From Aestuariivirga sp. (GTDB lineage: Bacteria; Pseudomonadota; Alphaproteobacteria; Rhizobiales; Aestuariivirgaceae), in NCBI GenBank assembly GCA_030680855.1, contig JAUXUN010000025.1:1-64000 (forward strand): DNA of 64,000 bases, read 5' to 3'. The notes beneath the pieces are model-generated. The model was not told the origin of the DNA, made no database searches, and saw nothing but the letters and a program-made list of their open reading frames with translations. Of the stretch, positions 7,052 to 22,611 are shown one piece after another (the stretch's first letter is position 1; each line of letters begins with the position of its first letter). Made by a program: the position numbers and the translations under genes.

Positions 7052-8434
7052 TCAGCACTCAACCACATTGACGGCGAGGCCGCCGGTTGAGGTTTCCTTG
7101 TAGCGGTCGCTCATGTCGATGCCGGTCTGGCGCATGGTTTCGACGCAGTTGTCGAGCGGCATGAAATGCCGGCCATCGCCGCGAAGTGCCAGCGAGGCAG
7201 CGGTGACGGCTTTCACCGCGCCAAAGGCGTTGCGCTCGATGCAGGGCACCTGGACCAGGCCGCCGACGGGATCGCAGGTCATGCCGAGGTGATGTTCAAG
7301 GGCGATTTCGGCGGCGTTTTCCACCTGCTCGTTGCTGCCGCCCAAGGCCGCGCATAATCCGGCGGCGGCCATGGCGGAAGCCGAACCCACTTCGCCCTGG
7401 CAGCCCACTTCGGCTCCGGAAATCGAGGCATTGTGCTTGATGATGCCGCCTATCGCCGATGAGACGAGAAGCAGGGTGCGAACGCCCGCTTCATCCGCAT
7501 CGAGGCAATGGTCGAGATAATAGCGGACGATGGCCGGCATGACGCCGGCCGCACCATTGGTGGGGGCGGTGACCACCTTGCCGCCCGCGGCATTCTCCTC
7601 GTTCACGGCCATGGCATAGACCGAGAGGAAATCCATGATGCGGTGGGGCTGGATGGAATTGCCGCCCTGCTCTTCCCTGAGCCTGGCGAAAATCTCACTG
7701 GCGCGGCGTTTCACTTTCAGGCCGCCGGGCAGTTGCCCGCCGAAGGTGAGGCCGCGGTTCATGCAGGCGTTCATGGCGGCCCAGATGCGGTCGAGACCCT
7801 TGTCCAACTCGGCGCTGGACATCGTGGCGGTTTCATTGGCGCGCTTCATCTCAGCAATGCTGAGGCCGGAGGCCTTGCCCATCTCCAGCATTTCCTTGGC
7901 GGTCGAGAAGGGATAGGGCACAGCGAGCTTGGGCTTCGCGGCCGCGCGGTCCTGGGATTTTGATTCCAGCCGTTCCGCTTCGGTCTGAACAAAACCGCCG
8001 CCGATGGAATAATAGGTTTCGCTGAAAATTTTCGCGCCGGTCGCATCCCAGAGACTGAAGATCATGCCATTGGCATGGCCGGGAAGTGCGGGGCCGTAAT
8101 CGAAGATCACATCTATGACGGGATCAAAGGAAACGCGCTTGCCGTTTGGTAGCGTGATATATTTGTGCTCAGCTATTTCCTGAACAACCGCCTCAACCCG
8201 GTCCGGCTCGATTGTCTCGGGGGCTTCTCCCGCGAGGCCTAACACAACGGCGCGGTCAGTGCCGTGGCCTTTGCCGGTGAAGGCCAGCGAGCCGTGGAGC
8301 GAAACGGTGACGTGGGTGGCGTTTTCGGCTTTTGCATTCGACAGGAAGCGGCGCGCCGCAACCATGGGCCCAACCGTGTGGGAGCTGGACGGGCCGATGC
8401 CAATCTTGAAGAGTTCAAAGACCGAGAGAAACAT
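7052..8434 (-). CDS. sdaA: L-serine dehydratase (iron-sulfur, single chain)
   Basis: Deaminates L-serine to pyruvate and ammonia with a [4Fe-4S] cluster, in the cytoplasm. The 460 residues contain the beta domain with the [11 protein letters not shown] motif (14-24), then the alpha domain. The cluster ligands are Cys345 (GCQGEVG), Cys387 (CDPVGG), Cys398 (VPCIE) and the C-terminal Cys460, which matches the tail-in-mouth arrangement known from the Legionella enzyme. It is the last gene of the 13-gene minus-strand run, its ATG directly abutting the stop of the flavin reductase gene. That position suggests it drains serine or glycine carbon from the substrate degraded by the operon, as serine dehydratases do in glycine-betaine catabolism of pseudomonads. 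Confidence 0.96.
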
Positions 8435-8920
8435 TCAGCCCACCGTGCGATGGTAGCCGCCGCGATAAAACACCAGCGGCTTGCCTTTAGGGTCGTGATC
8501 AAATTTCAGCACTTCGCCCACGAAGATAGCATGATCGCCGCCATCATAGGTGTAAAGCTTGCGGCATTCAAAAATGGCCAGCGCGCTTGGCAGAACGGGG
8601 CAGCCGGTTTCCCAGAACTCATAGTCAATACTGCGCCACTTGTCGCCGGACGACTTGGAAAAGCGCGCCGAGAGATCGTCCTGGCCCTCGCGCAGCACGT
8701 TCACGGCGAAGTATTTGGCCGCCATGTAGGTTTCATAACTGTAGGCCTTGCGCGCCAGGCTCCACAGAACTAGGGGCGGATCAAGCGAAACGGAATTGAA
8801 GGAACTGGCGGTGTTGCCCACCATCTCGCCGGAAGCCGTCACAGTGGTCATCACGGTAACGCCGGTTGCAAAGGTTCCCAGGGCTGAGCGGAAGGCTTTG
8901 GGGTCGAGGGTATTGGACAT
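8435..8920 (-). CDS. Flavin reductase family protein
   Basis: A 161-residue FMN-binding split-barrel protein of the flavin reductase (HpaC/DIM6-NTAB) family. These supply reduced flavin to a partner monooxygenase or reduce flavin themselves. The family opening FRSALGTFATGVTVMTT and the NTASSFNSVSLDPPLVLWSL block (about residues 40-59) are clear. The frame is open to 8980, but the ATG at 8920 gives the standard N-terminus. It lies 31 bp after the SDR gene and abuts sdaA. No flavin-dependent monooxygenase gene is seen in the window, so its partner may be encoded elsewhere or be one of the FAD enzymes in the operon. Confidence 0.85.
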   Translation of the reverse strand: MSNTLDPKAFRSALGTFATGVTVMTTVTASGEMVGNTASSFNSVSLDPPLVLWSLARKAYSYETYMAAKYFAVNVLREGQDDLSARFSKSSGDKWRSIDYEFWETGCPVLPSALAIFECRKLYTYDGGDHAIFVGEVLKFDHDPKGKPLVFYRGGYHRTVG

Positions 8921-8951
8921 GGCCCCTGTTAAGCCGATTTGAGCCGGTGGC

Positions 8952-9713
8952 TCAAGGCATGAACTGGCCGCCGTTAACATGAAGGATTTGGCCGGTGACG
9001 TAGCCCCCCATAGAGGTGGAGGCGAGAAGCAGGATGGGGCCGACGCAATCCTCAGGGGTTCCGGCGCGGCCGAGGGGAACTGACTTTTTCATGGCTTCCA
9101 TGCGCTCCGGCGGGGTGGCCGCATGGAAGGCGGTTTCGATGACGCCAGGTGAGATGGCGTTGACCCGGATTTTGCGCGCGGCCAGGTCGCGGGCCATGTG
9201 GCGGGTGAGATTATGGACATAGGCCTTGGCGCAGGCATAATGCCCGGAGCCCGGGCCGCCACCGTCAGCTCCGGCAATGGAGCCCACATTGATGATGGCG
9301 CCGCCGCCCTGCTTTTCCATGTGGGGGACGGCGGCCTGCGAGGCTTCGATGACGGATTTCACGTTCAGGTTCATGGCGGCGTCGTAGAGATCGGCATCAA
9401 GTTCGAGGAATGGCGCCCGGCGGATCATGGCGCCGGCGTTGTTCAGCAGAATGTCGAGCCGGCCCAGTTGCTTTGCGGCCTCTTCGACAACCCGCTTCGC
9501 GGTGCCCGGAATGCCGAGGTCGCCGCCGATGGCAACGGCCTTGCTGCCAAGCTTCCGGATGGCGGCGCAAACGGCCTCGGCAGCCGCGGCATTCTTGTTG
9601 TAGTGGACGGCGACATTCGCCCCCAGCCTGCCAAATTCCAGGGCAGCGGCGGCCCCGATGCCGATGCTGGCGCCGGTGATCAGGACGGCTTTTCCACGCA
9701 GGTCTTCAAGCAT
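8952..9713 (-). CDS. SDR family oxidoreductase
   Basis: NAD(P)-dependent short-chain dehydrogenase/reductase of 253 residues. It has the cofactor glycine motif TGASIGIG (about 14-21), NNAG, and the catalytic Ser-Tyr-Lys set with YACAK. The tail motif VTGQILHVNGGQ is typical of the 3-oxoacyl-ACP reductase-like branch. The ATG at 9713 overlaps the stop of the amidohydrolase gene by 8 nt. Position in the operon suggests it oxidises an alcohol or reduces a ketone intermediate; the substrate is not evident. Confidence 0.88.
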   Translation of the reverse strand: MLEDLRGKAVLITGASIGIGAAAALEFGRLGANVAVHYNKNAAAAEAVCAAIRKLGSKAVAIGGDLGIPGTAKRVVEEAAKQLGRLDILLNNAGAMIRRAPFLELDADLYDAAMNLNVKSVIEASQAAVPHMEKQGGGAIINVGSIAGADGGGPGSGHYACAKAYVHNLTRHMARDLAARKIRVNAISPGVIETAFHAATPPERMEAMKKSVPLGRAGTPEDCVGPILLLASTSMGGYVTGQILHVNGGQFMP

Positions 9714-11352
9714 GAGCAATCCCTTTGAATTTTTCGGAGCGGTGAACTTCCTTGCCGCCCAGAAGGGTGAGGAGCACTTCCGTATCACCGATATCATAGA
9801 CATTACAGGTGAAAATATCGCGGTCGAGAACGATAAGATCGGCATATTTTCCGAGGCTCAAGGAGCCCGTGTCGTGGCTGCGCCAGGCGGCTTCGGCGGC
9901 GAAAGTGGTGTAGCCTTTGACGCATTCCTCGCGGGTCATGCGCTGTTCGGGGAGGAATACGGGATGGTCGCCCTGCTTTTGCGGCGGCTGGCGGGTGATC
10001 GCGGTTTCCATGATCGGGAAGGGATTGAGGGTTGAGACACCCCAATCGCTGGAAATGGCATAGGGAGCGCCAGCATCGATGAGCGAGCGGAAGGCATACA
10101 TCCATTTGCCCCGCTCTTCGCCCACCATGGGCAGAGCCACATCGGTGACCGAGGGTTCATAGCGAGCCCACAGGGTCTGGATATTGGCCACCACGCCCAA
10201 TTGGCGGAAGCGCGGAATATCGGCGCGATCGATGCACTGCACATGGGCCAGCTGGTGGAGGCTGGGCCAAGGGCCATTGGCGGCGCGGGCCGCTTCAAGG
10301 GCATCCAAAGCGGCGCGCACGGCGCCATCGCCGATGACATGGACATGAATTTGAAAACGCGCGGCATCGAAGGCGGTAAAGAGTTCCTTGATCTGGTTGT
10401 GGCCGAACATGAGTTCGCCATTGCCGCCAAGGGCATCGGAATAGGGCTCGATCATGACGCCGGTGCGGTTTTCCAGAACGCCATCAAGAAAGAATTTCGC
10501 CGAATGGATTTTGAACAGGCCGGAGCTGGCGTTGCGGCGCAAGTCCTCGAGGCGGCGGAGCGCGTCTTCGGTTTTTTCGGCGGACACGACCTTGGCGGTG
10601 GCGGCGACGCGCACGGTCAAGGCGCCGGCGCGTTCCAGGCTGCTGTAGATGCGGGCATGGCGCTCATTCACCATGGCATCAATGACGCCGGTAATGCCAT
10701 GGCGGTTGCACAGGGCCTGGCCATAGCGCACGCCATTGGCGTAATCCTCATCGGTGGGCACAGGCATGAAGCTTTCAGCCCAATAGGTGGCGGTTTCATG
10801 CAGCATGCCGGTGGGCTCGCCATTGGCATCCAAAACAAAGTGGCCGTTTTCCGGATCGGGCGTACCGCGCACGAGGCCAACTGCTTCACAGGCCTTGGAA
10901 TTCATGCAGGCATTGTGGCCATCGCTGGCCACGATGTAACAGGGCCGGTCGGGCACGGCGGCATCGAGCACGTGGCGGTTGAGGTTATGGTCGGTGAAAA
11001 TGCCGGTGTACCAGCCGACGCCATTCACCCAGGGTCCGGTATGGGTTTTGGCGAAGTCGGCCAGGACTTTTTGCAATTCGGCGATGGTCGAGACGTTGTG
11101 AAGTGCAGCACTTTTGCTGTGGTCGTAGCCGCTATCCTGCAGATGGATGTGGGTGTCCTGAAAGCCCGGCAGGACGAGGCGGCCGCCGGCATCGACGATG
11201 CGGGTTGAGGGGCCTGCAAGGGTGGCGATCTCGGCAGCGGTGCCGAGGGCGGAGACACGGCCATTGGTGACGGCCAAGGCGGCCACGCGCGGGGCAAGCG
11301 GGTCCATGGTGCAGATATCGGCGTTGGTGACAATGAGTTCAGGTGTTTTCAA
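9706..11352 (-). CDS. Amidohydrolase, YtcJ / N-substituted formamide deformylase-like
   Basis: Metal-dependent hydrolase of the amidohydrolase superfamily, YtcJ-like branch, about 548 residues. It has the N-terminal beta-sandwich strand, the metal motif DTHIHLQDSG near residue 65, a further metal-site histidine in the HVIGDGAVRAALDAL block and an aspartate in SSDWGVSTLNP. Named members deformylate N-substituted formamides, but many are uncharacterised. I place the start at TTG 11352, which overlaps the stop of the upstream cupin gene as TTGA and has GGAG 8 nt before it. The ATG at 11427 lies deep in the upstream gene and the next ATG would remove a conserved strand. A C-N hydrolase fits an operon for a nitrogenous substrate. 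Confidence 0.82.
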   Translation of the reverse strand: MKTPELIVTNADICTMDPLAPRVAALAVTNGRVSALGTAAEIATLAGPSTRIVDAGGRLVLPGFQDTHIHLQDSGYDHSKSAALHNVSTIAELQKVLADFAKTHTGPWVNGVGWYTGIFTDHNLNRHVLDAAVPDRPCYIVASDGHNACMNSKACEAVGLVRGTPDPENGHFVLDANGEPTGMLHETATYWAESFMPVPTDEDYANGVRYGQALCNRHGITGVIDAMVNERHARIYSSLERAGALTVRVAATAKVVSAEKTEDALRRLEDLRRNASSGLFKIHSAKFFLDGVLENRTGVMIEPYSDALGGNGELMFGHNQIKELFTAFDAARFQIHVHVIGDGAVRAALDALEAARAANGPWPSLHQLAHVQCIDRADIPRFRQLGVVANIQTLWARYEPSVTDVALPMVGEERGKWMYAFRSLIDAGAPYAISSDWGVSTLNPFPIMETAITRQPPQKQGDHPVFLPEQRMTREECVKGYTTFAAEAAWRSHDTGSLSLGKYADLIVLDRDIFTCNVYDIGDTEVLLTLLGGKEVHRSEKFKGIAHA

Positions 11353-12005
11353 GACACGTTCTCCAGAGTGGGCCAATCGGGTGAGGGAATGATTCTTGCG
11401 GGCTGGGTCGTGTCCCTGGTCCAGCAAAAAACTGCGAGAAATGGCGTGTCACCGGTCATGGTGGCGTGGGGTTCCCACGGGTTGTTCCAAACGGGATCAT
11501 CAGCATCTTTCCAGACAAGGGGTGCGCCCGGCTTGAAGCGCCAGCCATGGGGGCCGGTAAGCGGGGCGTAAAGCTCCGGGGCCGCGTGGTGATGGTCGCG
11601 GTAGAAAAGATGGGGCGCGATGATGAACAGGCCCAGATCAAAATCCACCGCTTCGATGGGGCAGCCCTCACCGATGATGGAGGCGAAGGCGTGGTTGTCG
11701 GCAAAGCCCGCGCCAATGTCCTCGCGGGGGTAGGCATCATAGGAAACCCAATGGAGAAATGGGCGCGCATCAGCGATGGCCTTCGCGAGGGAGAGTTTGC
11801 CCATGGCCCGCAAAGCCGGATCAAGATGCTCGCAGGCCGGAAGACTCCGGCTTTTGATTTGGCCAATCGGCCCCCTCGCCCATTTGTTCATTCCCTCGAG
11901 AACTGAAGCAATCCCCGCCCCCTTCAAGCGCGACAGGTAGGTTTCGATCTCGGCAACAAGCATGCGGAAGGCGGTTTCTGCGGTGTTTCTCTGCATGGCA
12001 ATCAA
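11349..12005 (-). CDS. DMSP-lyase-like cupin
   Basis: A 218-residue single-domain cupin resembling the DddL/DddQ-type dimethylsulfoniopropionate lyase family. The helical N-terminal part is followed by a textbook cupin metal motif, HHHAAPELYAPLTG (HxH, three residues, E, six residues, G) near residue 140, and a downstream PHA histidine near residue 181. DMSP lyases of this group use a metal-bound tyrosine or histidine set to cleave DMSP to acrylate and dimethyl sulfide; terrestrial relatives often have unknown substrates. It overlaps the ATPase gene upstream by 4 nt and the amidohydrolase downstream by 4 nt, so it is certainly in the operon. The family call is fairly good; DMSP as substrate is only a possibility. 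Confidence 0.68.
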   Translation of the reverse strand: MIAMQRNTAETAFRMLVAEIETYLSRLKGAGIASVLEGMNKWARGPIGQIKSRSLPACEHLDPALRAMGKLSLAKAIADARPFLHWVSYDAYPREDIGAGFADNHAFASIIGEGCPIEAVDFDLGLFIIAPHLFYRDHHHAAPELYAPLTGPHGWRFKPGAPLVWKDADDPVWNNPWEPHATMTGDTPFLAVFCWTRDTTQPARIIPSPDWPTLENVS

Positions 12006-13093
12006 TGGCTGAGCACGCGGCCGGTGGTCGCCGGCCAGGTGATCCAGACCTTGGCGCCCACATTCATTGGCGTTGATTTTGTGTCGCTGTCATTTTGCTG
12101 CGAAACCGAAATGGGGCGGTCGTGGCCTTCGGCGGTCACCAGGAAATGATGGCGGTCGCCGCGGTAGGAAATGGCGCTCACCACGCCGGCGATGGCATTC
12201 ATCGATGCGGCAGGCTTTTTCGTCATCAGTTTCAGCTTCTCGGGACGCACCGCAAGGAAGGCGTAGTCCCCCTTGCGGCTGGTCCCCCGTGCCTGCAACT
12301 TCCCCAGGGCTCTTGCATCAATTGTTGTCGCGCCCTTCGCGGAAGCCGCAATCCTGCCAGAAAAAACATTCATCGTGCCGATAAACTCGGCAACTTCGCG
12401 GCAATTGGGGTTTTCATAGAGGGCTTCCGGGGCGTCGATCTGCAGCACCCTGCCCTTGGACATGACGGCGATGCGGTCGGACAGGGTGAGCGCTTCTTCC
12501 TGGTCATGGGTGACGAACACAAAGGTGATGCCAACGGTTCGTTGCAGGGCGCGCAATTCGATTTGCATTTCTTCACGGAGATTTTTATCGAGGGCGCCCA
12601 GCGGCTCATCAAGCAAAAGCACTTTCGGCCTGCAGACAAGGGCCCTCGCCAGGGCCACCCGCTGCCGTTGCCCGCCGGAAAGCTGGTGCGCGGCACGCCC
12701 ACCGTAGCCCGACAACTTCACCAGTTCCAGCGCGTCACTCACGCGTTTGCCCGCCTCATCTTTTGAGATCGCCGCATTGCGCAGACCATAGCCGATGTTC
12801 TCACCGACATTGAGATGGGGGAAAATGGCATAGCTCTGGAATACCATATTTGTCGGACGGTGATTGGCGGGAACACCGGCCATAGGCTCTGAGTCGATGA
12901 AAATTTCGCCCTCGGTTGGTTGTTCAAAGCCTGCCAGCATGCGGAGCAAGGTGGTTTTGCCGCAGCCGGAGGAGCCGAGCAGCGAAAAGAACTCGCCGCG
13001 ACTGATATCAAATGAAATGTCGTCGACGGCGGTCACGGGTCCGAAGCGCTTCGTGACTCCTGAAATTGAGATGATGCTGTCGGCTTTTGCCAT
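12002..13093 (-). CDS. ABC transporter ATP-binding protein, spermidine/putrescine type
   Basis: ATPase of a PotABCD-like importer, 363 residues. It has Walker A GSSGCGKTT (about 41), the Q-loop region, signature LSGGQRQRVALARAL (about 139), Walker B LLLDEP, and a C-terminal TOBE-type regulatory domain (from about 240). The frame extends upstream to 13159, but the ATG at 13093 (MAKADSIISI) gives the usual N-terminus. It follows the PotC-like permease by 4 bp and overlaps the cupin gene by 4 nt. Close relatives import polyamines, betaines or related cations, which fits a quaternary or methylated amine substrate. Confidence 0.92.
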   Translation of the reverse strand: MAKADSIISISGVTKRFGPVTAVDDISFDISRGEFFSLLGSSGCGKTTLLRMLAGFEQPTEGEIFIDSEPMAGVPANHRPTNMVFQSYAIFPHLNVGENIGYGLRNAAISKDEAGKRVSDALELVKLSGYGGRAAHQLSGGQRQRVALARALVCRPKVLLLDEPLGALDKNLREEMQIELRALQRTVGITFVFVTHDQEEALTLSDRIAVMSKGRVLQIDAPEALYENPNCREVAEFIGTMNVFSGRIAASAKGATTIDARALGKLQARGTSRKGDYAFLAVRPEKLKLMTKKPAASMNAIAGVVSAISYRGDRHHFLVTAEGHDRPISVSQQNDSDTKSTPMNVGAKVWITWPATTGRVLSH

Positions 13094-13097
13094 TATT

Positions 13098-13901
13098 TCA
13101 AAGGTCTCCCGGTTTGGCGGACTGGACGCCCAGTTTGCGCAGCAGGTCTGCCGCCACAACCAGAATGGCGGAACCCAGTAGAATGGCTGAGCCGAGCGCC
13201 AGCGTGCCCGGCAGCTTGTTGGGAAAACGGAGCTGGCTGAAGAGATAGACAGGAAGGGTGTTTTCGGTGCCGGTCAGGAAGAAGGCAACGACAAATTCAT
13301 CGAAGGAAATGATGAAGCAGAGCAGAAGGCTTGAAATCACGCCCGGTGCTGCAAGCGGCAGGGTCACGCGCACGAAGGTCATCCAGGCGTTCTCGCCGAG
13401 ATCGCGCGAGGCCTCCTCGAGGCTTTTGTCGAAGCCTTCAAGACGCGACATCAGAACGGTCATCGAGAACGGAATGCAGAGGAGAATATGGCCCGCGCCC
13501 ACCGTCCAAAGGGAAAGATTCATGTGCAGGAAACGCAGGACGATGACAAGCAAGGCGACGGCAATGACAATGGAGGGAATGACGAGCGGCAGCATCATGG
13601 CGCTGAGCACCGGCCCGCCACCCGGCAACCGGTAACGCGTGAGAGCTATGGCGGCGGGAAGGCCAATGGCCGTTGCCGTCACCGACACAATAACGCCAAC
13701 CACCAGGCTGTTCTTCAGCGAAAGGATCATGCTGGTGTTGGCCAGCATGCTGGCATAGTGGCGCGTGGTGAAACCCTTCAAGGGGAAAGTCGCGAAGGTG
13801 CTGTCGTTCAGGGAAAAAACCGGCATGAGCATGACCGGGCCGTACAGAAAAATCATGAAAGCAATGGCATAAATGAAAAGGGCGCTCGGCTTTCCCAGCA
13901 T
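13098..13901 (-). CDS. ABC transporter permease, PotC-like
   Basis: Inner-membrane permease of 267 residues with about six membrane segments. The cytoplasmic EAA loop is present as EEASRDLGENAWMTFVRVTLP (about 161-181), the contact site for the ATPase. It lies 2 bp after the PotB-like permease gene and 4 bp before the ATPase gene. Together with these and the binding protein it forms one importer of the spermidine/putrescine family. Confidence 0.92.
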   Translation of the reverse strand: MLGKPSALFIYAIAFMIFLYGPVMLMPVFSLNDSTFATFPLKGFTTRHYASMLANTSMILSLKNSLVVGVIVSVTATAIGLPAAIALTRYRLPGGGPVLSAMMLPLVIPSIVIAVALLVIVLRFLHMNLSLWTVGAGHILLCIPFSMTVLMSRLEGFDKSLEEASRDLGENAWMTFVRVTLPLAAPGVISSLLLCFIISFDEFVVAFFLTGTENTLPVYLFSQLRFPNKLPGTLALGSAILLGSAILVVAADLLRKLGVQSAKPGDL

Positions 13902-13903
13902 CG

Positions 13904-14836
13904 CTAGCGGCTCCTCTCGCGCATTTTGGAATAGCCGACGGCCCAGAGGAACAGGGCTACGATGCCCGCGATAATGGCCATCATGACGATCGCCAGGGCA
14001 GCGCCAAGCGGAGCGTTATCCTGGCGGAGAAAGAGCTCCTGCATTAATGTGCCGATCATCGTGCCGCCGGGGCCACCTACGAGGGTTGGCGTGACATAAT
14101 CCCCAACGGTGGGAATGAAGACGAGAAGTGCTGCGGCGATGGTGCCGGGGGCTGAGAGCGGCAGGGTCACGCGCCAGAAGCGCTGCCAGCGGCTGTCGCC
14201 AAGATCGGTTGCCGCCTCAAGCAGCGAGCGGTCAATTTTCTCCAGGGAGACATAGATGGGAAGCACGGTGAAGGCGATCCAGGCATGGGCCAGGGTGATC
14301 ATCACCGCAATCGGATTGTAGAGGAGGAATTCCAGCGGCGCCTCAATGATGCCGAGTGATTTCAGCCCGGTGTTGATGGCGCCATTGTAGCCCAGCACAA
14401 TTTTCCAGGCGAAGACGCGCAGGAGATAGCTGGTCCAGAAGGGAATAGTGAGAAGGATAATCCACAGGGCTTTGTGGCGGGTGACGCGGAAAGCAAGGAA
14501 ATAGGCCATGGGATAGGCCATGGCGATGACCACAACAGTGGCCACGAGCGACATGACGAGCGACTTGAGCATCAGGATTGCGGCAACGGGATAGGCAAAG
14601 GGAAAGGGTATGCCCATCCAAACCATCGGCTCCGACGAGGGTTCGATCAGCTTCCAATAATTGGCAAGCGTAAAACTGCGGTCGATGTCGAAGCCCGTTT
14701 GCGACCAGAAACTCAAAACGAAAAGGGCGATGACGGGGGCAGCAAGCGTTGCCGCCATGACAAGCAAGGCGGGGGAGAGAAGCGCATAGCCCGCAAGCCA
14801 ATCCGGCCACTGACGCCTCGGTTTAGGGCTGGTCAT
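13904..14836 (-). CDS. ABC transporter permease, PotB-like
   Basis: Inner-membrane permease of about 310 residues with six or more membrane segments and the EAA loop EAATDLGDSRWQRFWRVTLP in the second half. Two further in-frame ATGs lie upstream (14854) and the frame extends to 14890; I chose 14836 because GGAAGGG precedes it at the right distance. It is separated from the binding-protein gene by 145 bp that contain a large palindromic repeat, and is followed after 2 bp by the PotC-like gene. Confidence 0.9.
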   Translation of the reverse strand: MTSPKPRRQWPDWLAGYALLSPALLVMAATLAAPVIALFVLSFWSQTGFDIDRSFTLANYWKLIEPSSEPMVWMGIPFPFAYPVAAILMLKSLVMSLVATVVVIAMAYPMAYFLAFRVTRHKALWIILLTIPFWTSYLLRVFAWKIVLGYNGAINTGLKSLGIIEAPLEFLLYNPIAVMITLAHAWIAFTVLPIYVSLEKIDRSLLEAATDLGDSRWQRFWRVTLPLSAPGTIAAALLVFIPTVGDYVTPTLVGGPGGTMIGTLMQELFLRQDNAPLGAALAIVMMAIIAGIVALFLWAVGYSKMRERSR

Positions 14837-14873
14837 CGCGACCCTTCCAGTCATAGTCCGGCCATTTCCTTTT

Positions 14874-14981: not shown

Positions 14982-16103
14982 CTACTGCTTCAAGGCCTTG
15001 AGTTCACCCCAGACCTTGTTCTGCTCGTTCTGCACCGCATCGGTAGGGGTTTTAAACAGGATGGCCGATTTCATGTGCTCAACCGGGTCCAAAATGCCCA
15101 TGGCCTTCACATCGTCGGGATTAGCCGCTTCAAAGGACTTGATGTTGGCGTGGCCATAGCCGGATCCTTCAATCAGCGTCTTGCCGGTTTCGGGAGAAAG
15201 CCAGGCATCAATGAAGTCATAGGCGAGCGCCGGGTCGGCCTTGCCGGTATTGAGCAGCGTAAGGCCGCAGAACCAGGTGAAGTAACCCTCCTTCGGCTTG
15301 GCGTAGGTAACCGGGATTCCTTCCCTGGTCAGGTTTTTCACCACATCGTTCCAGGCATAGGCTGCCACGACTTCGCCGGAGGCCATCGCCTGCTGCAATT
15401 CGGAGGCATCGGTCCAGAGGAAGCGGCTGTTCTTCACGCCTTTTTCGCCCCAGGTTTTCGCTGCCTCAGTCAAGGCCGCGCCGGTCAGCTTGTAGGCCTC
15501 GTCATAGGGCATGCCGCCCACCATGGCGCCGATGAGGATGAGAAGCTCATTGTCCAGCATTGAAACCTTGCCGGCGTATTTGTCGTCAAAGAAAATGCCC
15601 CAGGATTCATTCTTCTTGAAATCATCATCCACCAGATCGGTGCGATAGGCGATGCTGGAGTTGCCCCAGTCGGCGGGCGCCATCATGACCTTGCCGTCAA
15701 CGAGAACGCCATCGGCGGTTTGCAGGGCGGGGAAAATGTCCTTCCAGTTGGAAAGTTTCGAAGTATCAATCTCTACCGCGAGCTTGGCGCTCACGAAGCG
15801 ACCCACCGAATAATTGCAAGGGTGCATGACATCGGCGGCGAAGCCGGCGCGCACTTTGGCCAACGCATCCTCCTCGCCGGAAAAGATGGAAAAATTCGGC
15901 GCTGCGCCATGCTTGTCAACATAGGACTGGAAATACTCGGCAACATCATAGCCGCCCCACTCCATGCATGTGAGCACTTCGGCAGCGGCCGAAAGCTTCG
16001 GCAGGCTGAGGAGGCCGACACCAAAGGCTCCGGCCTGGGACAACATCTGGCGGCGGGACATCTTGCCCTGGGCCATCCGGTCGATGAATTGAATGCGTTT
16101 CAT
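14982..16103 (-). CDS. ABC transporter substrate-binding protein, PotD-like
   Basis: Periplasmic binding protein of 373 residues. The N-terminus has SRRQMLSQAGAFGVGLLSLP (residues 16-35), a twin-arginine-like signal with cleavage expected near SAAAE (about 41). The mature part has the PotD/PotF-type two-lobe pattern, with conserved blocks such as APADWGNSSIAYRTDLV and MASGEVVAAYAWNDVV and many aromatic residues that could cage a cationic ligand. It is encoded 37 bp after the GcvT-family gene in the same direction. Its ligand is likely the substrate of the operon. Confidence 0.9.
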   Translation of the reverse strand: MKRIQFIDRMAQGKMSRRQMLSQAGAFGVGLLSLPKLSAAAEVLTCMEWGGYDVAEYFQSYVDKHGAAPNFSIFSGEEDALAKVRAGFAADVMHPCNYSVGRFVSAKLAVEIDTSKLSNWKDIFPALQTADGVLVDGKVMMAPADWGNSSIAYRTDLVDDDFKKNESWGIFFDDKYAGKVSMLDNELLILIGAMVGGMPYDEAYKLTGAALTEAAKTWGEKGVKNSRFLWTDASELQQAMASGEVVAAYAWNDVVKNLTREGIPVTYAKPKEGYFTWFCGLTLLNTGKADPALAYDFIDAWLSPETGKTLIEGSGYGHANIKSFEAANPDDVKAMGILDPVEHMKSAILFKTPTDAVQNEQNKVWGELKALKQ

Positions 16104-16140
16104 GCTTTCCTCTCCTGTTTTCCGTGGCCTGATGCCACTT

Positions 16141-17343
16141 TCAATAATTCAAGGGCGGCACGGCCCTGCGGCGCGCCAAATTTATGAAGGGACGCGGTGT
16201 GACGCGGGCCTTCACCATGAGCTTGTGATACTGCAGTTCGCGCGAAGCGTAGATTTCAACCCAGAGATCGCCGTTGCGTTCGGCGTGGTAGGGGCGTTCC
16301 ATCATCGCCAGGGCAATGTTGCGCTTGGTGGACGGCGACCAGAGGGCGGCGGTTATGTGGCCCACTTCGTCCTTCTTGTTGTGATAGATCAGCGAATGTT
16401 CGGCGGAGACATTGCCTTCGATATCAAGGCCGACAAGGGCCCATTTAGAGGTGCCTTTGGTTTTCTCTTCAAGCAGGGCGCGCCTGCCGTTGAAATGGCC
16501 CTTGCCGAAGTCGATCATCCATTCGAGGCCCATTTCGAGGGGCGATCTTGCCCTATCGCCGCGCACGGCGTGTTCGGCGGTGATGAAATCCATGTTGGCG
16601 ATGATGAAGCCCGCTTCGATGCGCGCCATGTTGAGGGCATTGGTGCCGATCGGGCGGATGCCGTAAAGGGCGCCCGCTTCGAAGAGGATGTCCCAAAGTT
16701 CCAGGGCGCGGCCCGGCGAGGTCCATAATTCATAGCCGAGATCTCCGGTGAAGCCGGTGCGGGAAATCGTGGGGGCGCCGGATTTTCCGAATTTGAAATC
16801 GGCCATCTGGAAAGGCTTGAGGGCAGCGGCCTTCTCGAATCCTGCGGCTTTCAACACGGAATAGGAGCATGGGCCTTGCAGTGACAGCGCGGCAATTTCT
16901 TCGCTGATCTCGCTCACGGCCACATCATAGCCGATGGCGCTGTCGAGGAGCCACGGGAGGTGGCGCTCCTGGCAGCAGAGCATGAAGTCACTGGCGCCGC
17001 GGCGGAAAAGTGTGCCGTCGTCCAGCAGCTTGCCCCCGTCATCGCACCAGGCAGTGTAGTGGACGTGGCCCACTTTCAGCTTCGCCACGCTGCGAACCAT
17101 CAGGCGGTCGAGATAGGCGGCGGCATCCCTGCCGGCGATCTTGTATTTCACCATGGGCGAAAGATCGTAAACGCTGGCCTGATTTCGGATGGCGGTATAT
17201 TCCATGGGCTCGTCGTCGAAGGCTAGCACCGTGGTGTAACCGCCCCAGGGGCCCCAGGAATTGAGCTTGTTCAGCGCCGAAGTGCGTGCATGGAAGGGCG
17301 ACGTGAGCAGCGGTTTCTTGAAATGGAGGCGCGGATCGTTCAT
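16141..17343 (-). CDS. GcvT-family (aminomethyltransferase / DmdA-like) protein
   Basis: A 400-residue protein of the glycine-cleavage T-protein fold. GcvT-family enzymes move a methyl or methylene group from an amine, sulfonium or aminomethyl carrier to tetrahydrofolate; DmdA, which demethylates DMSP, is one member. Conserved blocks include EYTAIRNQASVYDLSPM (about 48), the SRTGFTGDLGYELW block (about 203) and a C-terminal barrel domain. The stop of the FAD oxidoreductase gene overlaps its start by 4 nt. With no other glycine cleavage genes (gcvH, gcvP) nearby, a catabolic demethylase is more likely than a glycine-cleavage role. Which methylated compound is used is not shown. Confidence 0.85.
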   Translation of the reverse strand: MNDPRLHFKKPLLTSPFHARTSALNKLNSWGPWGGYTTVLAFDDEPMEYTAIRNQASVYDLSPMVKYKIAGRDAAAYLDRLMVRSVAKLKVGHVHYTAWCDDGGKLLDDGTLFRRGASDFMLCCQERHLPWLLDSAIGYDVAVSEISEEIAALSLQGPCSYSVLKAAGFEKAAALKPFQMADFKFGKSGAPTISRTGFTGDLGYELWTSPGRALELWDILFEAGALYGIRPIGTNALNMARIEAGFIIANMDFITAEHAVRGDRARSPLEMGLEWMIDFGKGHFNGRRALLEEKTKGTSKWALVGLDIEGNVSAEHSLIYHNKKDEVGHITAALWSPSTKRNIALAMMERPYHAERNGDLWVEIYASRELQYHKLMVKARVTPRPFINLARRRAVPPLNY

Positions 17344-18884
17344 CGCCTGCCCTCCAGCTTCAGAATACGCTCGGCCACGTTCCAGCCGGCCGCGCCGGAA
17401 ATGCCGCCGCCGGGATGGGAACCGGCACCGGCAAGCCAGAGTCCTGGGATTGCGGTTTCGTACTGGGCGGCACCGATGAAGGGCCGGAGGAAGAGCATTT
17501 GCTCGGCGGCGAGTTCGCCATGGTGCCAGTTGCCGCCGATGAAGCCATATTGTTTTTCGAGGTCTTCGGGGGTGAACAGTTCGCTTTTCACCACAAGTTT
17601 GCCGATGCCTGGGGCATAGGTTTCGAGCGTCGCCATGATGCGTTTGAGGAAGGCGGCGCGGGCCCTGGCGTCCATGACGGCAGGCGCATATTGCACGATG
17701 GCCGACAGCACATGGTGGCCCATGGGGGCGAGGCCTTCTTCGAAGGCTGACGGAATGACTATCTCCATCACGGGGTTTTCCGAGAATTCGCCGTACTTCA
17801 CGGGATTGAAAGCATCTTCCACGGCGCGCACCGAGGGAGCAATCACCAAACGGGTCTTGAGATCAGCGCCCTTGAAGTTGGGAGCGCCGTTCAGCGCCAG
17901 ATGCAGTTTCACGACATTGCCGCGCATCAGGATATTGCCGGCGCGGCGGACCATGCCCGTATCGAGGTGGCGGGGGCCTACGAGGTCAAGAAAGGTTGTC
18001 CTGGGATTGATGGCGGAGATTACGGTCTTGGCGTCGATCACTTCACCATTCTGCAAGGTGACACCTGTGGCCTTGTCGCCCACGATGTTCACCGATTTCA
18101 CTTTGGCGTTCACACGGATGTCTACGCCAAGAGCCTGCACGGCTTTTGCCATGGCGGCGGCAACAGAGCCCATGCCACCTTTTGGAATGGAGAGAGCTTC
18201 GCCTGCCAGGCGATTGAAGAGAAGGAGAAGCGAGTTGGGCGAGCGGGGACCAAGATGGGCGCCCAGCACCGTATCAAAGGCGATGGCACCTTTCAGGCGA
18301 TCATCCTTCAGTTCATCGTCGAGCACATCGGCCACATTGATCAGCATGAGGCGCATGAATTCGCGAAGGTCATCGCGGCCAAGGCCCCTGATCTTCAGGC
18401 CAAGGCCGGCCAGCTTCAACATTTCATTGCCGACGCCCTTGCCGAGGCGCGGCGGCGTTAGGGCCTTGAAGGGCTTCAATACGGCGGCAAAGCGCATGAG
18501 TTTCCGGCGCAGTTCGGCCCATGAGGCGCGGTCCGCATCCGAAAGGCTTCCCGCTATTGTCTCGCCGTAATTGCCCTCGAGCACGAGATGACCGCCGGTT
18601 CGCGACAGTGCCGTGGTCGAAAGATTGGTGGCCGCAAATTCGAGACCATGACTTTTCAGGCCAAGCCCCTGCTCCACCCGGGGATCAAGCAAATTAAGGA
18701 GATGGGCGACGGCGCTGACTTTGTAGCCTTTTGTGAATTCCTTGGTGGTTGCGCCGCCGCCTGCAACAGCAGCCTGCTCCAGAACCAAAACCTTGCGGCC
18801 CGCCTTGGCGAGGCGGCCTGCGGCGGCGAGGCCGTTGGTGCCGCCACCGATGATGATGGCATCACAGGACGGCATAGGCGTCAC
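17340..18884 (-). CDS. FAD-dependent oxidoreductase, phytoene-desaturase-like (second of tandem pair)
   Basis: A 514-residue flavoprotein. The N-terminal dinucleotide fold has IIGGGTNGLAAAGR (about 11-24) with the acidic residue at VLVLEQ, and the C-terminal FAD motif is GLWLAGAGSHPGGGISGAAG (about 477). This group includes carotenoid desaturases and many uncharacterised amine or alcohol oxidoreductases. It overlaps the paralogous upstream gene by 23 nt and the GcvT-family gene by 4 nt. Since no carotenoid gene is near, an oxidative step on the operon's substrate is more likely. ATGs at 18884 and 18875 are both possible. Confidence 0.85.
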   Translation of the reverse strand: MTPMPSCDAIIIGGGTNGLAAAGRLAKAGRKVLVLEQAAVAGGGATTKEFTKGYKVSAVAHLLNLLDPRVEQGLGLKSHGLEFAATNLSTTALSRTGGHLVLEGNYGETIAGSLSDADRASWAELRRKLMRFAAVLKPFKALTPPRLGKGVGNEMLKLAGLGLKIRGLGRDDLREFMRLMLINVADVLDDELKDDRLKGAIAFDTVLGAHLGPRSPNSLLLLFNRLAGEALSIPKGGMGSVAAAMAKAVQALGVDIRVNAKVKSVNIVGDKATGVTLQNGEVIDAKTVISAINPRTTFLDLVGPRHLDTGMVRRAGNILMRGNVVKLHLALNGAPNFKGADLKTRLVIAPSVRAVEDAFNPVKYGEFSENPVMEIVIPSAFEEGLAPMGHHVLSAIVQYAPAVMDARARAAFLKRIMATLETYAPGIGKLVVKSELFTPEDLEKQYGFIGGNWHHGELAAEQMLFLRPFIGAAQYETAIPGLWLAGAGSHPGGGISGAAGWNVAERILKLEGRR

Positions 18885-20478
18885 TCATGGGAAGGGGCTT
18901 CTTCAAATCGCGCAGGATTTCGGCGGCCGCATTGCGGCCGGGTGCGCCCATGACGCCGCCGCCGGGATGGGTGGAGGAGCCGCACATCCAGAGATCCTTG
19001 ATGGGCGACCGGTATTGCGAAGCGCCGGGCACCGGGCGATTGAACAGCAGTTGGTCGAAGGTGAGTTCACCCTGGAATATATTGCCTTCGGTGAGGCCCA
19101 CTTCACGCTCCAGCTCGCGTGGCGTGCGCACTTCCATGTGGAGAATGAGGTCCTTGAAACCGGGCGCATAACTGGCGATCTGGTTGATCACGGTTTTGCC
19201 GAACTCGTCACGGTCCTTGTCGGTCCATTCGCCGCCATTTATTTTCGGCGGGGCGTATTGCACGAAGCAGCTCATGAAATGCTTGCCGGGCGGCGTCATG
19301 GTGGGATCAATGAGCGTAGGAATCATCGTGTCCTGGAAAGGATCGCGCGACCAGCGGCCGGCTTTCCAGTCGTCGTAAGCCTTTTCCATGCGCTCAATGG
19401 AATCGGTGAAATGCAGATCGCCCCGGTAGCAGGGCGAATCCTTAGGGAGAGCCTTGAACTTCGGCACGCCATCAAGCGCGATGTTCACCTTGCCGGAGGA
19501 GCCGCGGATTTTGAAGTTCCTGACCTGCTTCACGAAAGCGGCGGGCAATTCCTTTTCCTCGACGGTTTTGAGGAAGGTGCGCTTTACATCCATGTTGGAG
19601 ACGACAAGTTTTCCGTGAATTTCGTCGCCACCGTCGAGGACGACGCCAACGGCGCGGCCATTCTTGACAAGTACGCGGTCCACGCCCTTGCCCGCTCGGA
19701 TTTCACCGCCCGATGCGGCCAGCGACTTCGACATGGCCTGGGTGATGGAGCCCATGCCGCCACGGGCAAAGCCCCAGGCGCCGATATTGCCGTCAACATC
19801 GCCCATGTAATGATGGAGCAGCACATAGGCCGAGCCCGGCGACATGGGGCCAAGAGCGGTACCGATGATGGCGGAAACGGCGAGATAGGCTTTTATCACC
19901 GGATGTTCGAAATATTCATCGAGATAATCGGAGATGCTCATGGTCCAGAAGCGGACCATTTCGTAGCGCTCGGTTTCGGTCATGCCGAAGAACTTTTTGC
20001 CGATGTACATCAGTTCATTGAGATCGCGGGGGCGGAACGAGGTGGGATCGGGCGGGGTGCGCATCAGCATCGGGCGGATGAAGCGGCAGTGGCGCAGGAT
20101 ATCGCGGGAATAGCGGTCGTAGGCTTCGGCGTCGCGCTTTGAATGGCGGGCGAATTCGCGGCGGTTGGCGTCATGGTCGCGGTACATGGCGAGATAGCCG
20201 CCGTCCTGCTGCAGTACCGCGCCGCCTTCATACGGCAATATCTGCAAGCCGTATTTCGGCAGCTCCAGATCGCGCATGATTTCCGGGCGGAGCAACGAGG
20301 AAACATAGGAACAGTTCGAGTAGGTGAAGCCGGGGTAGAGCGAGCGCGACACGGCGGCGCCGCCGATCCAGTCATTCTTTTCGACGACGACAACCTTGAG
20401 GCCGGACTTGGCAAGATAGCAGGCCGTCACCAGTCCGTTATGGCCAGCACCGATGATGATGGCGTCGTAGGCGGTCAT
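18862..20478 (-). CDS. FAD-dependent oxidoreductase, phytoene-desaturase-like (first of tandem pair)
   Basis: A 538-residue paralogue of the next gene. It has the FAD fold IIGAGHNGLVTACYL (about 7-21), the ribose-binding glutamate in VVVVEKN, and the C-terminal block DLWMCGSSTHPGGGVMGAPG (about 496). The two proteins share layout but differ through the central substrate region, so they are not a recent duplication and may form a heterodimer or act in sequence. It overlaps the aminotransferase gene by 4 nt. Function within the operon is inferred as oxidation of an amine or alcohol. Confidence 0.85.
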   Translation of the reverse strand: MTAYDAIIIGAGHNGLVTACYLAKSGLKVVVVEKNDWIGGAAVSRSLYPGFTYSNCSYVSSLLRPEIMRDLELPKYGLQILPYEGGAVLQQDGGYLAMYRDHDANRREFARHSKRDAEAYDRYSRDILRHCRFIRPMLMRTPPDPTSFRPRDLNELMYIGKKFFGMTETERYEMVRFWTMSISDYLDEYFEHPVIKAYLAVSAIIGTALGPMSPGSAYVLLHHYMGDVDGNIGAWGFARGGMGSITQAMSKSLAASGGEIRAGKGVDRVLVKNGRAVGVVLDGGDEIHGKLVVSNMDVKRTFLKTVEEKELPAAFVKQVRNFKIRGSSGKVNIALDGVPKFKALPKDSPCYRGDLHFTDSIERMEKAYDDWKAGRWSRDPFQDTMIPTLIDPTMTPPGKHFMSCFVQYAPPKINGGEWTDKDRDEFGKTVINQIASYAPGFKDLILHMEVRTPRELEREVGLTEGNIFQGELTFDQLLFNRPVPGASQYRSPIKDLWMCGSSTHPGGGVMGAPGRNAAAEILRDLKKPLPMSDAYAVL

Positions 20479-21824
20479 GCGCTCTTCTCGGCCTCCAACT
20501 GTTCGAGCGTCAGGTCGACGGCCGTTTCAACTGCCTTCAGCGTGTCGGTGAGGCAGCTTGCGTCCGTGCCATGGGCTTCGCACATGAACCAGGGCTCGCG
20601 CGAGTCTGGTTCGCAGATGATGCCGAGGTCGTGCAGGTGATAGGCCATGGTGTCATAGAAAGTGTAGTCGGATTTTTTCCATTCGCGATAATTGTCCGGC
20701 GCATGCTCGGCGAAGAACAGGCCGAACATGGAGGGGTGGCCCGTGTAGGAATGGACGATGCCGCGGCGATTCAAAATTTCCGAGAGGCCGCGCTTCAGCG
20801 TCTCGCCGTAGTTGGCCAGCGTTTCCAACGCAGGCGTTTCATCAAGAATGCGCAGGCATTCCTCGGCGGCGGCAAGGCTCACGGAGTGCGCCGTATAAGT
20901 GCCGCCGTGGGCCGCGCCGCCATATTTGAAAGTGCGCATGACCTTTTCGCTGCCAGCGACGATGGCGATGGGATAGCCGTTGGCCACCGCCTTGGCGAAA
21001 GTGGTGATGTCGGGCGTCACGCCATAGAGGCCCTGGATGCCGCCCTTGCCGACGCGGAAGCCGGACTTCACTTCGTCGATGATCAGCAGCACGCCATATT
21101 TGTCGCAGAGTTCGCGAGCGTATTTCACATACTCGACCGAGGCCATGATCGAGCAGCAATTGCCCTGGATCGGTTCGATCAGTATGGCGGCCAGCATGTG
21201 GCCGTGCCGCTTGAAGGTGTCTTCAAGGCGCTGCATGCTGTTGTTGGGCACCACATGGACGAGGGATTTCAGGGTTTGCGGGATGCCCTTGGAATAGGCC
21301 ACCACTTCCGGATCGTCGTTGGAAGTCTTGTCCCAACCGTCGACATTCGACATCCACATGGCGGCATCGAACAGGCCATGGTAGCCGCCTTCGACGAGGA
21401 CGTAGCTGTCACGGCTCGTATAGGCGCGGGCCAGGCGGAGAGCCGCCATCACCGCCTCGGTGCCGGAATTGGAAAAACGCACCAGTTCGGCGGCGGGCAC
21501 CATCTTGGCGATGCGGTCGGCGACGATGAGTTCGCGTTCGGTGGAGAGGGCAAAGACGCCGCCTACTTCCATGCCCTTGCGGGCGGCGGCATCGACGCGG
21601 TCATCGGCGTAACCGAGAACCGCGGGACCATAGCCCAGGCGGTAATCGACATAGCAGTTGCCATCGATATCCCAGGTGCGGCCGCCCTTGCCGTGATGGA
21701 CATAGATGGTGCGGTCGTCGCCCCAGTAGCGGAAGGTTGAGGCCACGCCGAGCGGCAGACGTTTCAGCGCCTTCTGGAATTGCGCGTTGGATTTGGCGAG
21801 TACGCGCGTTTTCGGACGATTCAT
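20475..21824 (-). CDS. Class III aminotransferase, glutamate-1-semialdehyde aminomutase-like
   Basis: PLP-dependent enzyme of 449 residues. It has NSGTEAVMAALRLAR (about 117), EGGYHGLFD, IIDEVKSGFRV (about 247) with the PLP-ring aspartate, and the Schiff-base lysine in TTFAKAVANGYP (about 273). It resembles glutamate-1-semialdehyde 2,1-aminomutase, but its place at the head of a catabolic operon argues against heme synthesis; the related group includes omega-amino acid transaminases. It is the first gene of the 13-gene run and diverges from the BetI-like regulator over a 26-bp perfect palindrome. Confidence 0.85.
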   Translation of the reverse strand: MNRPKTRVLAKSNAQFQKALKRLPLGVASTFRYWGDDRTIYVHHGKGGRTWDIDGNCYVDYRLGYGPAVLGYADDRVDAAARKGMEVGGVFALSTERELIVADRIAKMVPAAELVRFSNSGTEAVMAALRLARAYTSRDSYVLVEGGYHGLFDAAMWMSNVDGWDKTSNDDPEVVAYSKGIPQTLKSLVHVVPNNSMQRLEDTFKRHGHMLAAILIEPIQGNCCSIMASVEYVKYARELCDKYGVLLIIDEVKSGFRVGKGGIQGLYGVTPDITTFAKAVANGYPIAIVAGSEKVMRTFKYGGAAHGGTYTAHSVSLAAAEECLRILDETPALETLANYGETLKRGLSEILNRRGIVHSYTGHPSMFGLFFAEHAPDNYREWKKSDYTFYDTMAYHLHDLGIICEPDSREPWFMCEAHGTDASCLTDTLKAVETAVDLTLEQLEAEKSA

Positions 21825-21909
21825 AAATCACTCCCTGGGCCACAAGCCCTGCCCCGGCGTCTTTATCTATGCGGCCGGATTTTAGGGTCTTGCTCGATAG
21901 TCTGGCTTG

Positions 21910-21935
21910 ATTTTGATTGAACTGTCAATCAAAAT
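21910..21935. promoter_or_regulatory. Perfect 26-bp palindromic operator between the TetR gene and the operon
   Basis: ATTTTGATTGA and TCAATCAAAAT form perfect 11-bp arms around ACTG. It lies in the divergent region, immediately upstream of or overlapping the regulator start and 86 bp before the aminotransferase start. The core TTGAACTGTCAA is similar to BetI-type operators. A TTGACA on the minus strand (complement of 21923-21928) could be the -35 box of the operon, so binding would block it. This fits autoregulation and operon repression by the adjacent TetR-family protein. Confidence 0.7.
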
Positions 21936-21942
21936 GAAAGTC

Positions 21943-22611
21943 ATGAGATCAACTGTGAAAAAGCTCGACCCTGTTCCGCTGCCGCGCAAGGCCAGCCGCG
22001 AACACCGGCGGCAGCAGATGATCGAGGCCACCATCGAGAGCCTGGCAAGCCGTGGCTATGCCCAGACGACGATGACCGATGTGGCGGCGGCATCAGGCGT
22101 TTCGCATGGGTTGGTGAATTTCCATTTCGAGACGAAGGAAAAACTTCTGACCGAGACGCTGCTTTATCTCGCCGCCGAATATCGCGAGAACTGGAGGCAC
22201 GCGCTGGCGGGCGCTGCGCCCTCCCCCGCGGCGCAGCTCAACGCACTGCTGCTGGCGGACTTCAACGGGAAAATCTGCACGCAAAGCAAGCTGCGGGCCT
22301 GGTGCGCCTTCTGGGGCGAGGCGCAGAGCCGGCCGATCTACCAGGAAAAATGCGATGCCTATGACCAGGCCTGCAACCGCGAGCTCGAAGAGGTCTGCGC
22401 GAAGCTGATCGCGGAAGGCGGCTACAGCCACAACGCGGCGCGCGTGGCCCGCCTCTTGCGCGTCATCATCGAAGGCCTGTGGCTCGACATCATGTCAATG
22501 ACCACGCCCTATTCACGCGACGAGGCCATCCGCACGGTTTATGTATGTGCGTCGGCGCTGTTTCCACAGCACTTCACCGAAGGTGGATTACTAGAGCAAC
22601 CCGCGCTTTGA
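21943..22611 (+). CDS. TetR family regulator, BetI-like
   Basis: DNA-binding repressor of about 222 residues. The N-terminal helix-turn-helix (about 22-68) contains TTMTDVAAASGVSHGLVNFHF. The ligand domain matches BetI in the stretch ADFNGKICTQSKLRAWCAFW (about 92-111), a hallmark of choline-responsive BetI proteins, and in the IIEGLWLD helix. In-frame starts at TTG 21907 and ATG 21934 are alternatives, but they would lie in the operator. Its 3' end overlaps the convergent FAH gene by 21 nt. It most likely represses the divergent operon and responds to a choline- or betaine-like effector; the effector is inferred from family only. Confidence 0.82.
   Translation: MRSTVKKLDPVPLPRKASREHRRQQMIEATIESLASRGYAQTTMTDVAAASGVSHGLVNFHFETKEKLLTETLLYLAAEYRENWRHALAGAAPSPAAQLNALLLADFNGKICTQSKLRAWCAFWGEAQSRPIYQEKCDAYDQACNRELEEVCAKLIAEGGYSHNAARVARLLRVIIEGLWLDIMSMTTPYSRDEAIRTVYVCASALFPQHFTEGGLLEQPAL

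Follow-up and report, generated by a model that had tools for sequence, protein, structure and literature searches.

A FAD1-FAD2-GcvT gene trio in an Aestuariivirga operon that probably serves the import and degradation of N-methylated amines

The described systems that come closest to the operon reported here are the loci for glycine betaine, proline betaine (stachydrine) and carnitine, represented by GbcA, Stc2 and CntA, which we take to follow the same logic of quaternary-ammonium demethylation. To these can be added the dimethylglycine and sarcosine dehydrogenases and Tdm, which presumably pair demethylation with a GcvT domain; human PYROXD2, apparently of the same CrtO-like flavoprotein family as proteins of the operon; and the repressor BetI. 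The operon lies in a stretch of 64,000 nucleotides from Aestuariivirga sp. (assembly GCA_030680855.1, contig JAUXUN010000025.1, positions 1 to 64,000), referred to below as the window. It consists of 13 genes beside a divergent TetR-type regulator gene and includes a collinear trio that encodes two related flavoproteins, FAD1 and FAD2, and a GcvT-family protein. Demethylating catabolism of methylated amines under a BetI-like repressor is a known logic; the architecture of the trio and the regulon are new as far as the open-access literature was searched. We put at roughly 0.7 the probability that the operon is one lineage's version of a regulon under a BetI-like repressor, patchily distributed in the Alphaproteobacteria, for the import and degradation of N-methylated amines. 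The substrate most likely begins as a quaternary (trimethylammonium) compound with a second functional group. A preliminary description of the window had proposed the import, oxidation and demethylation of an onium or betaine-like compound. We retain this for an N-methylated, probably quaternary ammonium, compound but not for a sulfonium, because the GcvT protein scores 110 bits with the DmdA model NF009133 (cut-off 410) and the cupin is the sole gene of dimethylsulfoniopropionate (DMSP) type recognized in the operon.

The locus differs from each of the described systems. Compared with the betaine and carnitine loci, the trio occupies what we take to be the place of DgcAB/SoxBDAG-type enzymes, and a Rieske gene is missing from the window operon. 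For the Rieske proteins of related clusters the best NCBI model is glycine betaine monooxygenase (GbcA), but with 146 and 149 bits they remain a long way short of its cut-off of 670. The window GcvT protein is nearest to Tdm; unlike in Tdm and the dimethylglycine and sarcosine dehydrogenases, however, it has a gene of its own, and the flavoproteins beside it are paralogues of each other, of CrtO/PYROXD2 type. PYROXD2, unlike the trio, is a single mitochondrial protein and we know of no GcvT partner for it. The window regulator resembles BetI in its TetR_C_6 domain and its divergent position, in line with its earlier naming as BetI-like, but it scores 107 bits with the BetI equivalog TIGR03384, below the cut-off of 201, and the operon has no choline-to-betaine genes. 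There is also a dyad in the window, ATTGA-n4-TCAAT, that resembles the BetI box.

The 13 genes are all on the minus strand, from 21824 down to 7052, and the divergent regulator gene is on the plus strand and ends at 22611. In order of transcription the operon encodes an aminotransferase, FAD1, FAD2, GcvT, PotD, PotB, PotC, PotA, a cupin, an amidohydrolase, a short-chain dehydrogenase/reductase (SDR), a flavin reductase and an L-serine dehydratase. The genes for the aminotransferase and FAD1 overlap by 4 bp, those for FAD1 and FAD2 by up to 23 bp and those for FAD2 and GcvT by 4 bp. The gaps are 37 bp (GcvT to PotD), 2 bp (PotB to PotC), 0 bp (flavin reductase to dehydratase) and, if the flavin reductase begins at the ATG at 8920, 31 bp (SDR to flavin reductase); several of the program-called starts are probably too long. 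The longest joint, PotD to PotB, is 91 bp and is the only gap above 40 bp. The preliminary description had listed 13 genes in one direction with these domains and mostly with joints of under 40 bp, and this is borne out; it also knew of no described pathway with exactly this gene set, and we found none in the open-access literature searched. Homarine degradation was the first candidate pathway, and it was rejected when no matching gene set came up in the open-access literature by title and start of abstract.

The trio belongs to the conserved core of the system. FAD1 (18862–20478, minus strand) and FAD2 (17340–18884, minus strand; GxGxxG motif present) both have CrtO as their best NCBI family model (NF045689), yet at 307 and 209 bits, respectively, neither comes near its cut-off of 1000. 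They are 33% identical to each other and are the sole such pair in the genome at E ≤ 1e-20. The GcvT-family protein (16141–17343, minus strand) belongs to the GcvT superfamily, with both PF01571 (183 bits) and PF08669 (42 bits) above cut-off, and it retains the LDD motif, the aspartate of which is presumably catalytic. Its nearest model is the C-terminal part of trimethylamine N-oxide (TMAO) demethylase (241 bits, cut-off 1100); it scores 168 bits against the solved TMAO demethylase and 161 bits with the glycine cleavage T equivalog TIGR00528, below the cut-off of 236.

We surveyed 60 relatives together with the genome itself (a 3.73-Mb draft in which the window, with a G+C content of 58%, is on contig C4), a set that includes 37 genomes of the genus. 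The GcvT gene was matched at E ≤ 1e-60 in ten of the 61 genomes, and in seven of the 37 within the genus, so the cluster is patchy. Around these matches the order TetR / aminotransferase-FAD1-FAD2-GcvT is found again for as much as the contigs cover, and the linkage of this core is above chance. Conserved linkage is what the preliminary description had asked of related genomes, and it is found for the core, while the complete order of 13 genes was found in the window only. The nearest named record by FAD1 is from an uncultured Rhizobiales bacterium (L030, 98% identity), and FAD1 is 74–84% identical in seven relatives. An alignment scan with FAD1 of named genomes gave at least 519 confirmed relatives, of which the best 80, mostly from Rhodobacterales and Rhizobiales, were kept and their genes counted by tblastn. 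FAD2 and GcvT were counted in loci with at least 3.2 kb downstream, TetR in loci with at least 3 kb upstream and other genes in loci flanked by 9 kb or more on each side. FAD1, FAD2 and GcvT are collinear in 67 of 67 such loci. A class-wide draw of 144 genomes gave seven positives at a FAD1 threshold of E ≤ 1e-180, one of them the genome itself and the other six from five genera. The trio is collinear in all six of these distant hits (FAD1 55–62% and FAD2 25–47% identical), one of which is a contig of 4.7 kb in which the FAD2 match is partial, and an aminotransferase gene is nearby in four.

We interpret FAD1, FAD2 and GcvT as subunits of a single enzyme, which we think is a folate-linked N-demethylase of new architecture. 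It is unlikely that FAD1 and FAD2 instead dehydrogenate a C–N or C–C bond of the imported amine, in the manner of polyamine or carotenoid-type dehydrogenases, and that GcvT merely clears the formaldehyde made by Rieske or trimethylamine dehydrogenase (TMADH)-like enzymes. The fold family of the two flavoproteins does include phytoene desaturases, Rieske demethylation is expected to yield formaldehyde, the one binding protein examined from one type of cluster resembles a family of putrescine binders (see below), and two FAD1 relatives in Sphingobium have no annotated GcvT neighbour. However, GcvT follows FAD2 in 67 of 67 loci and in six of six distant hits, including stretches in which there is no Rieske gene (the window, L063 and L161 to L166, of which L164 spans 4.7 kb). 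Additionally, the genome has 16 GCV_T matches, so a dedicated GcvT implies a dedicated partner. Several of these matches lie in open frames of about 800 residues, the size of fusion proteins, and the genome is thus well stocked with GcvT-type proteins.

The regulator gene (21907–22611, plus strand) encodes a TetR_C_6 protein (PF13977, 55 bits) and most likely starts at the ATG at 21934, because the listed TTG start at 21907 would put the operator inside the gene. A divergent BetI-like TetR gene is present in 65 of 68 loci. The predicted operator is a perfect 10-4-10 palindrome, TTTTGATTGA-ACTG-TCAATCAAAA, at 21911–21934 (no strand assigned) in the gap between the aminotransferase and TetR genes. 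The 80 loci fall into a layout A, with the aminotransferase of the window type, and a layout B (Mesorhizobium, Shinella, Rhizobium and others), with an omega-type aminotransferase (AT2) in its place. Sites with up to two mismatches to TGAYTGANNNNTCARTCA occur in the aminotransferase/TetR gap of 27 of the 29 layout-A loci that have both genes (7,342 bases of gap), whereas the remaining 479,737 bases of these loci contain two. Because dyads of these very gaps supplied the pattern, the 27 of 29 is partly circular, which does not apply to the comparison with the remaining sequence or to the scans of the genome and the genus. In layout B a related palindrome is found in the AT2/PotB gap, and one also lies immediately upstream of the Rieske gene in five loci (L069, L072, L076, L092 and L099). 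The layout-B pattern was derived from the AT2/PotB gaps, which makes its presence in 33 of 33 of them circular; the Rieske-upstream sites of L069, L072 and L076 were left out of its derivation and those of L092 and L099 had appeared earlier.

In the genome itself a longer operator pattern has five sites at up to two mismatches and the reversed control has none. One of the sites is that of the window, and another is on contig C24, between an MttB-family gene and a gene for a TMADH-like flavoenzyme. Three look like chance: one separates a helicase gene from a peroxidase gene, one separates the gene of a GntR regulator from that of an NMT1-type transporter, and one is inside a HipA-like gene. The sister species G009 has the MttB gene of C24 as well (90% identical), again directly behind an operator site. 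In G032, which carries the cluster with Rieske genes, a perfect site lies upstream of an MttB gene with 59% protein identity, and another site is near a partial relative (26% similar). A scan of the genus gave matches in 35 of 37 genomes, but numerous genomes were also hit by the reversed pattern, and a site with two mismatches is therefore mostly meaningless taken alone. Thirteen regions were picked by hand among the matches listed: seven have TetR, Rieske and importer genes, three are of MttB type (L148, L149 and L157), L153 and L158 have an aminotransferase or aminotransferase-FAD1-FAD2, and L154 has none of the queried genes. Taken together, an operator common to the importer, the Rieske pair, the trio, the aminotransferase and MttB suggests a single regulon, at whose operator the TetR protein would act as repressor and whose substrate would be a quaternary or N-methylated amine.

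The enzymes that accompany the trio in relatives are consistent with this. Two Rieske genes lie directly behind GcvT in L020 (from the genus of the window), in L110 (Fuscovulum) and in many Rhodobacterales loci, and a Rieske gene is present in 26 of the 47 loci with full flanks. Layout B keeps the trio, TetR and the importer and, where the stretch reaches, the Rieske gene. The nearest solved structure to the first Rieske protein is a putative dioxygenase (3n0q), followed by carnitine monooxygenase and by 3vca/4qup, of which we take 3vca to be stachydrine demethylase; carnitine monooxygenase is nearest to the second, about equal with aromatic-ring dioxygenases.

A TMADH-like flavoenzyme is found in some relatives, and the solved neighbours of the one in L021 include histamine dehydrogenase and trimethylamine dehydrogenase. 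G009 carries pieces of the operon on two contigs, one with FAD1-FAD2-GcvT-PotD (L029) and one that runs from PotB through the dehydratase with one extra gene (L129: PotB-PotC-PotA-cupin-amidohydrolase-SDR-TMADH-like gene-flavin reductase-dehydratase). The protein encoded by the extra gene, which is absent from the window operon, is 63% identical to the L021 relative. It is 60% identical to the TMADH-like protein of contig C24, which suggests that there has been no recent relocation between the two sites. At the joint of the G009 insertion, G023 has about 0.6 kb between the SDR and flavin reductase genes (L133:1606–2200). There is no convincing trace of a TMADH-like gene in this spacer (one 17-base match, E = 0.34), and genes may be gained and lost unusually often between SDR and flavin reductase.

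The MttB-type proteins of C24 (192.6 bits) and L148 (176.6 bits) are both above the cut-off of the superfamily model PF06253. Members of this superfamily demethylate trimethylamine, carnitine or butyrobetaine (PMC8604678).

We infer from these genes a route that would begin with uptake by the PotABCD-type importer. The first methyl group would be removed in relatives by the GbcA/CntA-like Rieske pair, and in the window species possibly by the MttB-family methyltransferase with the same operator. FAD1-FAD2 would then oxidize an N-methyl group to the iminium and GcvT would hand the one-carbon unit to tetrahydrofolate, the three acting as one enzyme, and in some genomes the trimethylamine/histamine dehydrogenase-like flavoenzyme would share in demethylation. 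The primary amine so released would be transaminated and the carbon skeleton would be handled by the cupin, amidohydrolase and SDR. Beta-alanine betaine, butyrobetaine, carnitine, trimethyl-lysine and methylated diamines are all possible substrates.

The aminotransferase (20475–21824, minus strand), the first gene of the operon, is a class-III enzyme of GSAM/GntE-like type (PF00202, 211 bits; GntE model 434 bits, cut-off 525) and is 68–78% identical in the same position in five relatives. The importer follows the trio and consists of a PotD/YdcS-type periplasmic binding protein (14982–16103; PF13416, 87 bits), a PotB-type permease (13904–14890; PotB model 181 bits, below the cut-off of 348), a PotC-type permease (13098–13901; PotC model 164 bits, below the cut-off of 326) and a PotA-type ATPase (12002–13159; true start probably within the open frame), all on the minus strand. 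The ATPase is above the PotA subfamily cut-off (TIGR01187, 376.7 against 355.6 bits). PotA or PotD is present in 46, and PotB or PotC in 45, of the 47 full-flank loci, and in L020 to L023 a PotDABC importer behind the core differs from that of the window. We attempted to name the ligand from the type of binding protein, and this failed because there are two unlike groups, one PotF-like and one not. The binding protein of the window scores 46 and 42 bits with the PotD and PotF models (cut-offs 582 and 636) and is 35–37% identical to those of Mesorhizobium-type clusters; the group formed by the window and layout B lacks some of the acidic positions attributed to PotF. The layout-A binding protein examined is PotF/SpuD-like, of the putrescine-binder family.

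The cupin (11349–12005, minus strand) is a member of the DMSP-lyase family (PF16867, 89.9 bits, cut-off 27). It has Y, H, H, E, Y and H at the aligned positions of DddQ, which we take to be the six positions of the active site, so lyase chemistry on some intermediate is possible. These features would suit a catabolism of DMSP-type sulfonium compounds headed by a cupin lyase. We regard this as very improbable, since the GcvT protein does not reach the DmdA cut-off, the Rieske, TMADH-like and MttB partners indicate amines, and the cupin was found in 17 of the 47 full-flank loci but not in any distant stretch (zero of six). For the lack of a DmdA and the amine type of the partners, a sulfonium pathway was rejected as the principal interpretation.

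Behind the cupin, also in L021 and L110, is the amidohydrolase gene (9706–11427; PF07969, 292 bits; Amidohydro_3; true start probably 11352), and it is followed in the window by the genes for the SDR (8952–9845; PF13561, 192 bits, match from residue 58; true start probably 9713), the flavin reductase (8435–8980; PF01613, 143 bits; true start probably 8920) and the L-serine dehydratase (7052–8434), all on the minus strand. The dehydratase is a true family member (TIGR00720, 603.5 bits, cut-off 345.1), and the preliminary description had taken it to drain the pathway through serine to pyruvate. In full, this would mean import of a betaine, demethylation to folate and conversion of glycine to serine and then to pyruvate, and the order flavin reductase-dehydratase is shared with G009 and G023. 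The flavin reductase is present in six of 37 genomes of the genus at E ≤ 1e-45, the genome itself included. However, the pair occurs without other operon genes in stretches of G016 (18 kb) and G008 (5 kb), the flavin reductase is alone in G002, and a dehydratase was found neither in L020 to L028 nor in the 80 loci, nor in the annotation of L110 to L113, many of these stretches ending just past the cupin. The pair is thus separable from the operon, which leaves the serine drain unproven, and we consider it quite unlikely.

Several observations weigh against a single regulon for N-methylated amines with the trio at its centre. Seven species of the genus (L150, L151, L152, L155, L156, L159 and L160) have TetR, Rieske and importer genes with no trio in the stretch, although that of L159 is short and covers one Rieske gene and an incomplete importer. 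All seven genomes lack a GcvT match at E ≤ 1e-60. G023 has only the tail of the operon (amidohydrolase, SDR, flavin reductase and dehydratase; L133) and again no GcvT match at this threshold. The trio, the Rieske pair and the tail are therefore separable within the genus. There is no Rieske gene in the window, and the one close Rieske homologue of the genome, on contig C1, has an unrelated neighbourhood and no operator site with up to two mismatches upstream. The TMADH-like gene is not universal (seven of 11 named carriers at E ≤ 1e-100), and the flavoenzyme at its position in Shinella is just 26% identical to the others. A corrinoid-protein gene was not recognized among the few MttB neighbours scanned, the rest of the genome not having been searched. 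The FAD1 relatives of Sphingobium are 38–39% identical, and the 39% homologue adjoins a Rieske gene; the two copies without an annotated GcvT neighbour have none within 8 kb, and one of them has no Rieske gene either. The 80 loci are not independent, since Mesorhizobium is over-represented and some contigs are duplicated in other genome records. Finally, the aminotransferases of different layouts are only 26–33% identical and the binding proteins split into two unlike groups, with the window and layout B together, so that one common substrate is not assured.

In addition to these genes, a gene for an S-adenosylmethionine-dependent methyltransferase accompanies both layouts (L110:29126–29899, L020:3023–3805, and between TetR and FAD1 in Mesorhizobium; 28 of the 47 full-flank loci), which is odd for demethylation. 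Homologues of an 81-residue protein that matches nothing in Pfam or NCBIfam (L111:20392–20637) adjoin GcvT or PotC in 29 of the 47. An acyl-CoA ligase of ADP-forming type is found in L025, L063, L162 and L163, and an acyl-CoA dehydrogenase in L025 and L063, which suggests that in the ligase lineages the carbon skeleton exits as a CoA-activated acid. Beside the TetR gene of the window, on the minus strand at 22591–27329, are a gene with an FAA-hydrolase domain and a ribose/AI-2-type ABC importer (two permeases and one double ATPase); in L030 all four genes likewise precede the regulator, as does the FAA-hydrolase gene in the short contig L056. One record with a Rhodobacterales-type cluster (L058, CP059262.1; FAD1 80% identical) is titled Exiguobacterium profundum, a label that looks wrong.

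FAD1 and FAD2 appear to be kin to human PYROXD2, in part by way of a provisional mammalian PYROXD2 sequence, which aligns over 549 residues with FAD1 at 40% identity and with FAD2 at 31% and serves as a lead only. A Shinella plasmid (L114) encodes one FAD protein, beside a gcvT gene, and the provisional sequence matches it just as closely (40%). Bird PYROXD2 is reported to be about 35% identical to the CrtO of Synechocystis, with no carotenoid activity detected (PMC12010460). According to another study, a missense variant of human PYROXD2 accounted in one cohort for 50% of the variance of N6-methyllysine and 48% of that of N6,N6-dimethyllysine in blood, and trimethyl-lysine and N-methylpipecolate were also linked to the gene (PMC8109053). 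PYROXD2 variants are further associated with urinary trimethylamine and plasma dimethylamine (PMC3169529). These metabolites are all N-methylated amines, which fits a demethylase reading of the bacterial trio.

This suggests a wider proposal, which we put forward tentatively and hold to be doubtful: that the trio represents a new class of folate-linked N-demethylase made of PYROXD2-type flavoproteins, that the regulon degrades N-epsilon-methylated lysine (trimethyl-lysine and its products) or a closely similar trimethylammonium amino compound, and that PYROXD2 demethylates mono- and dimethyl-lysine in mitochondria. The old activity epsilon-alkyllysinase would then be a candidate name. If the trio does demethylate, the function of PYROXD2 would become testable at the bench with tractable bacterial operons as the model, and a family of flavoproteins whose best-known members are carotenoid enzymes would gain a role in one-carbon and nitrogen turnover. 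The setting would be the methylated amines available to Alphaproteobacteria of soil, root nodules and waters.

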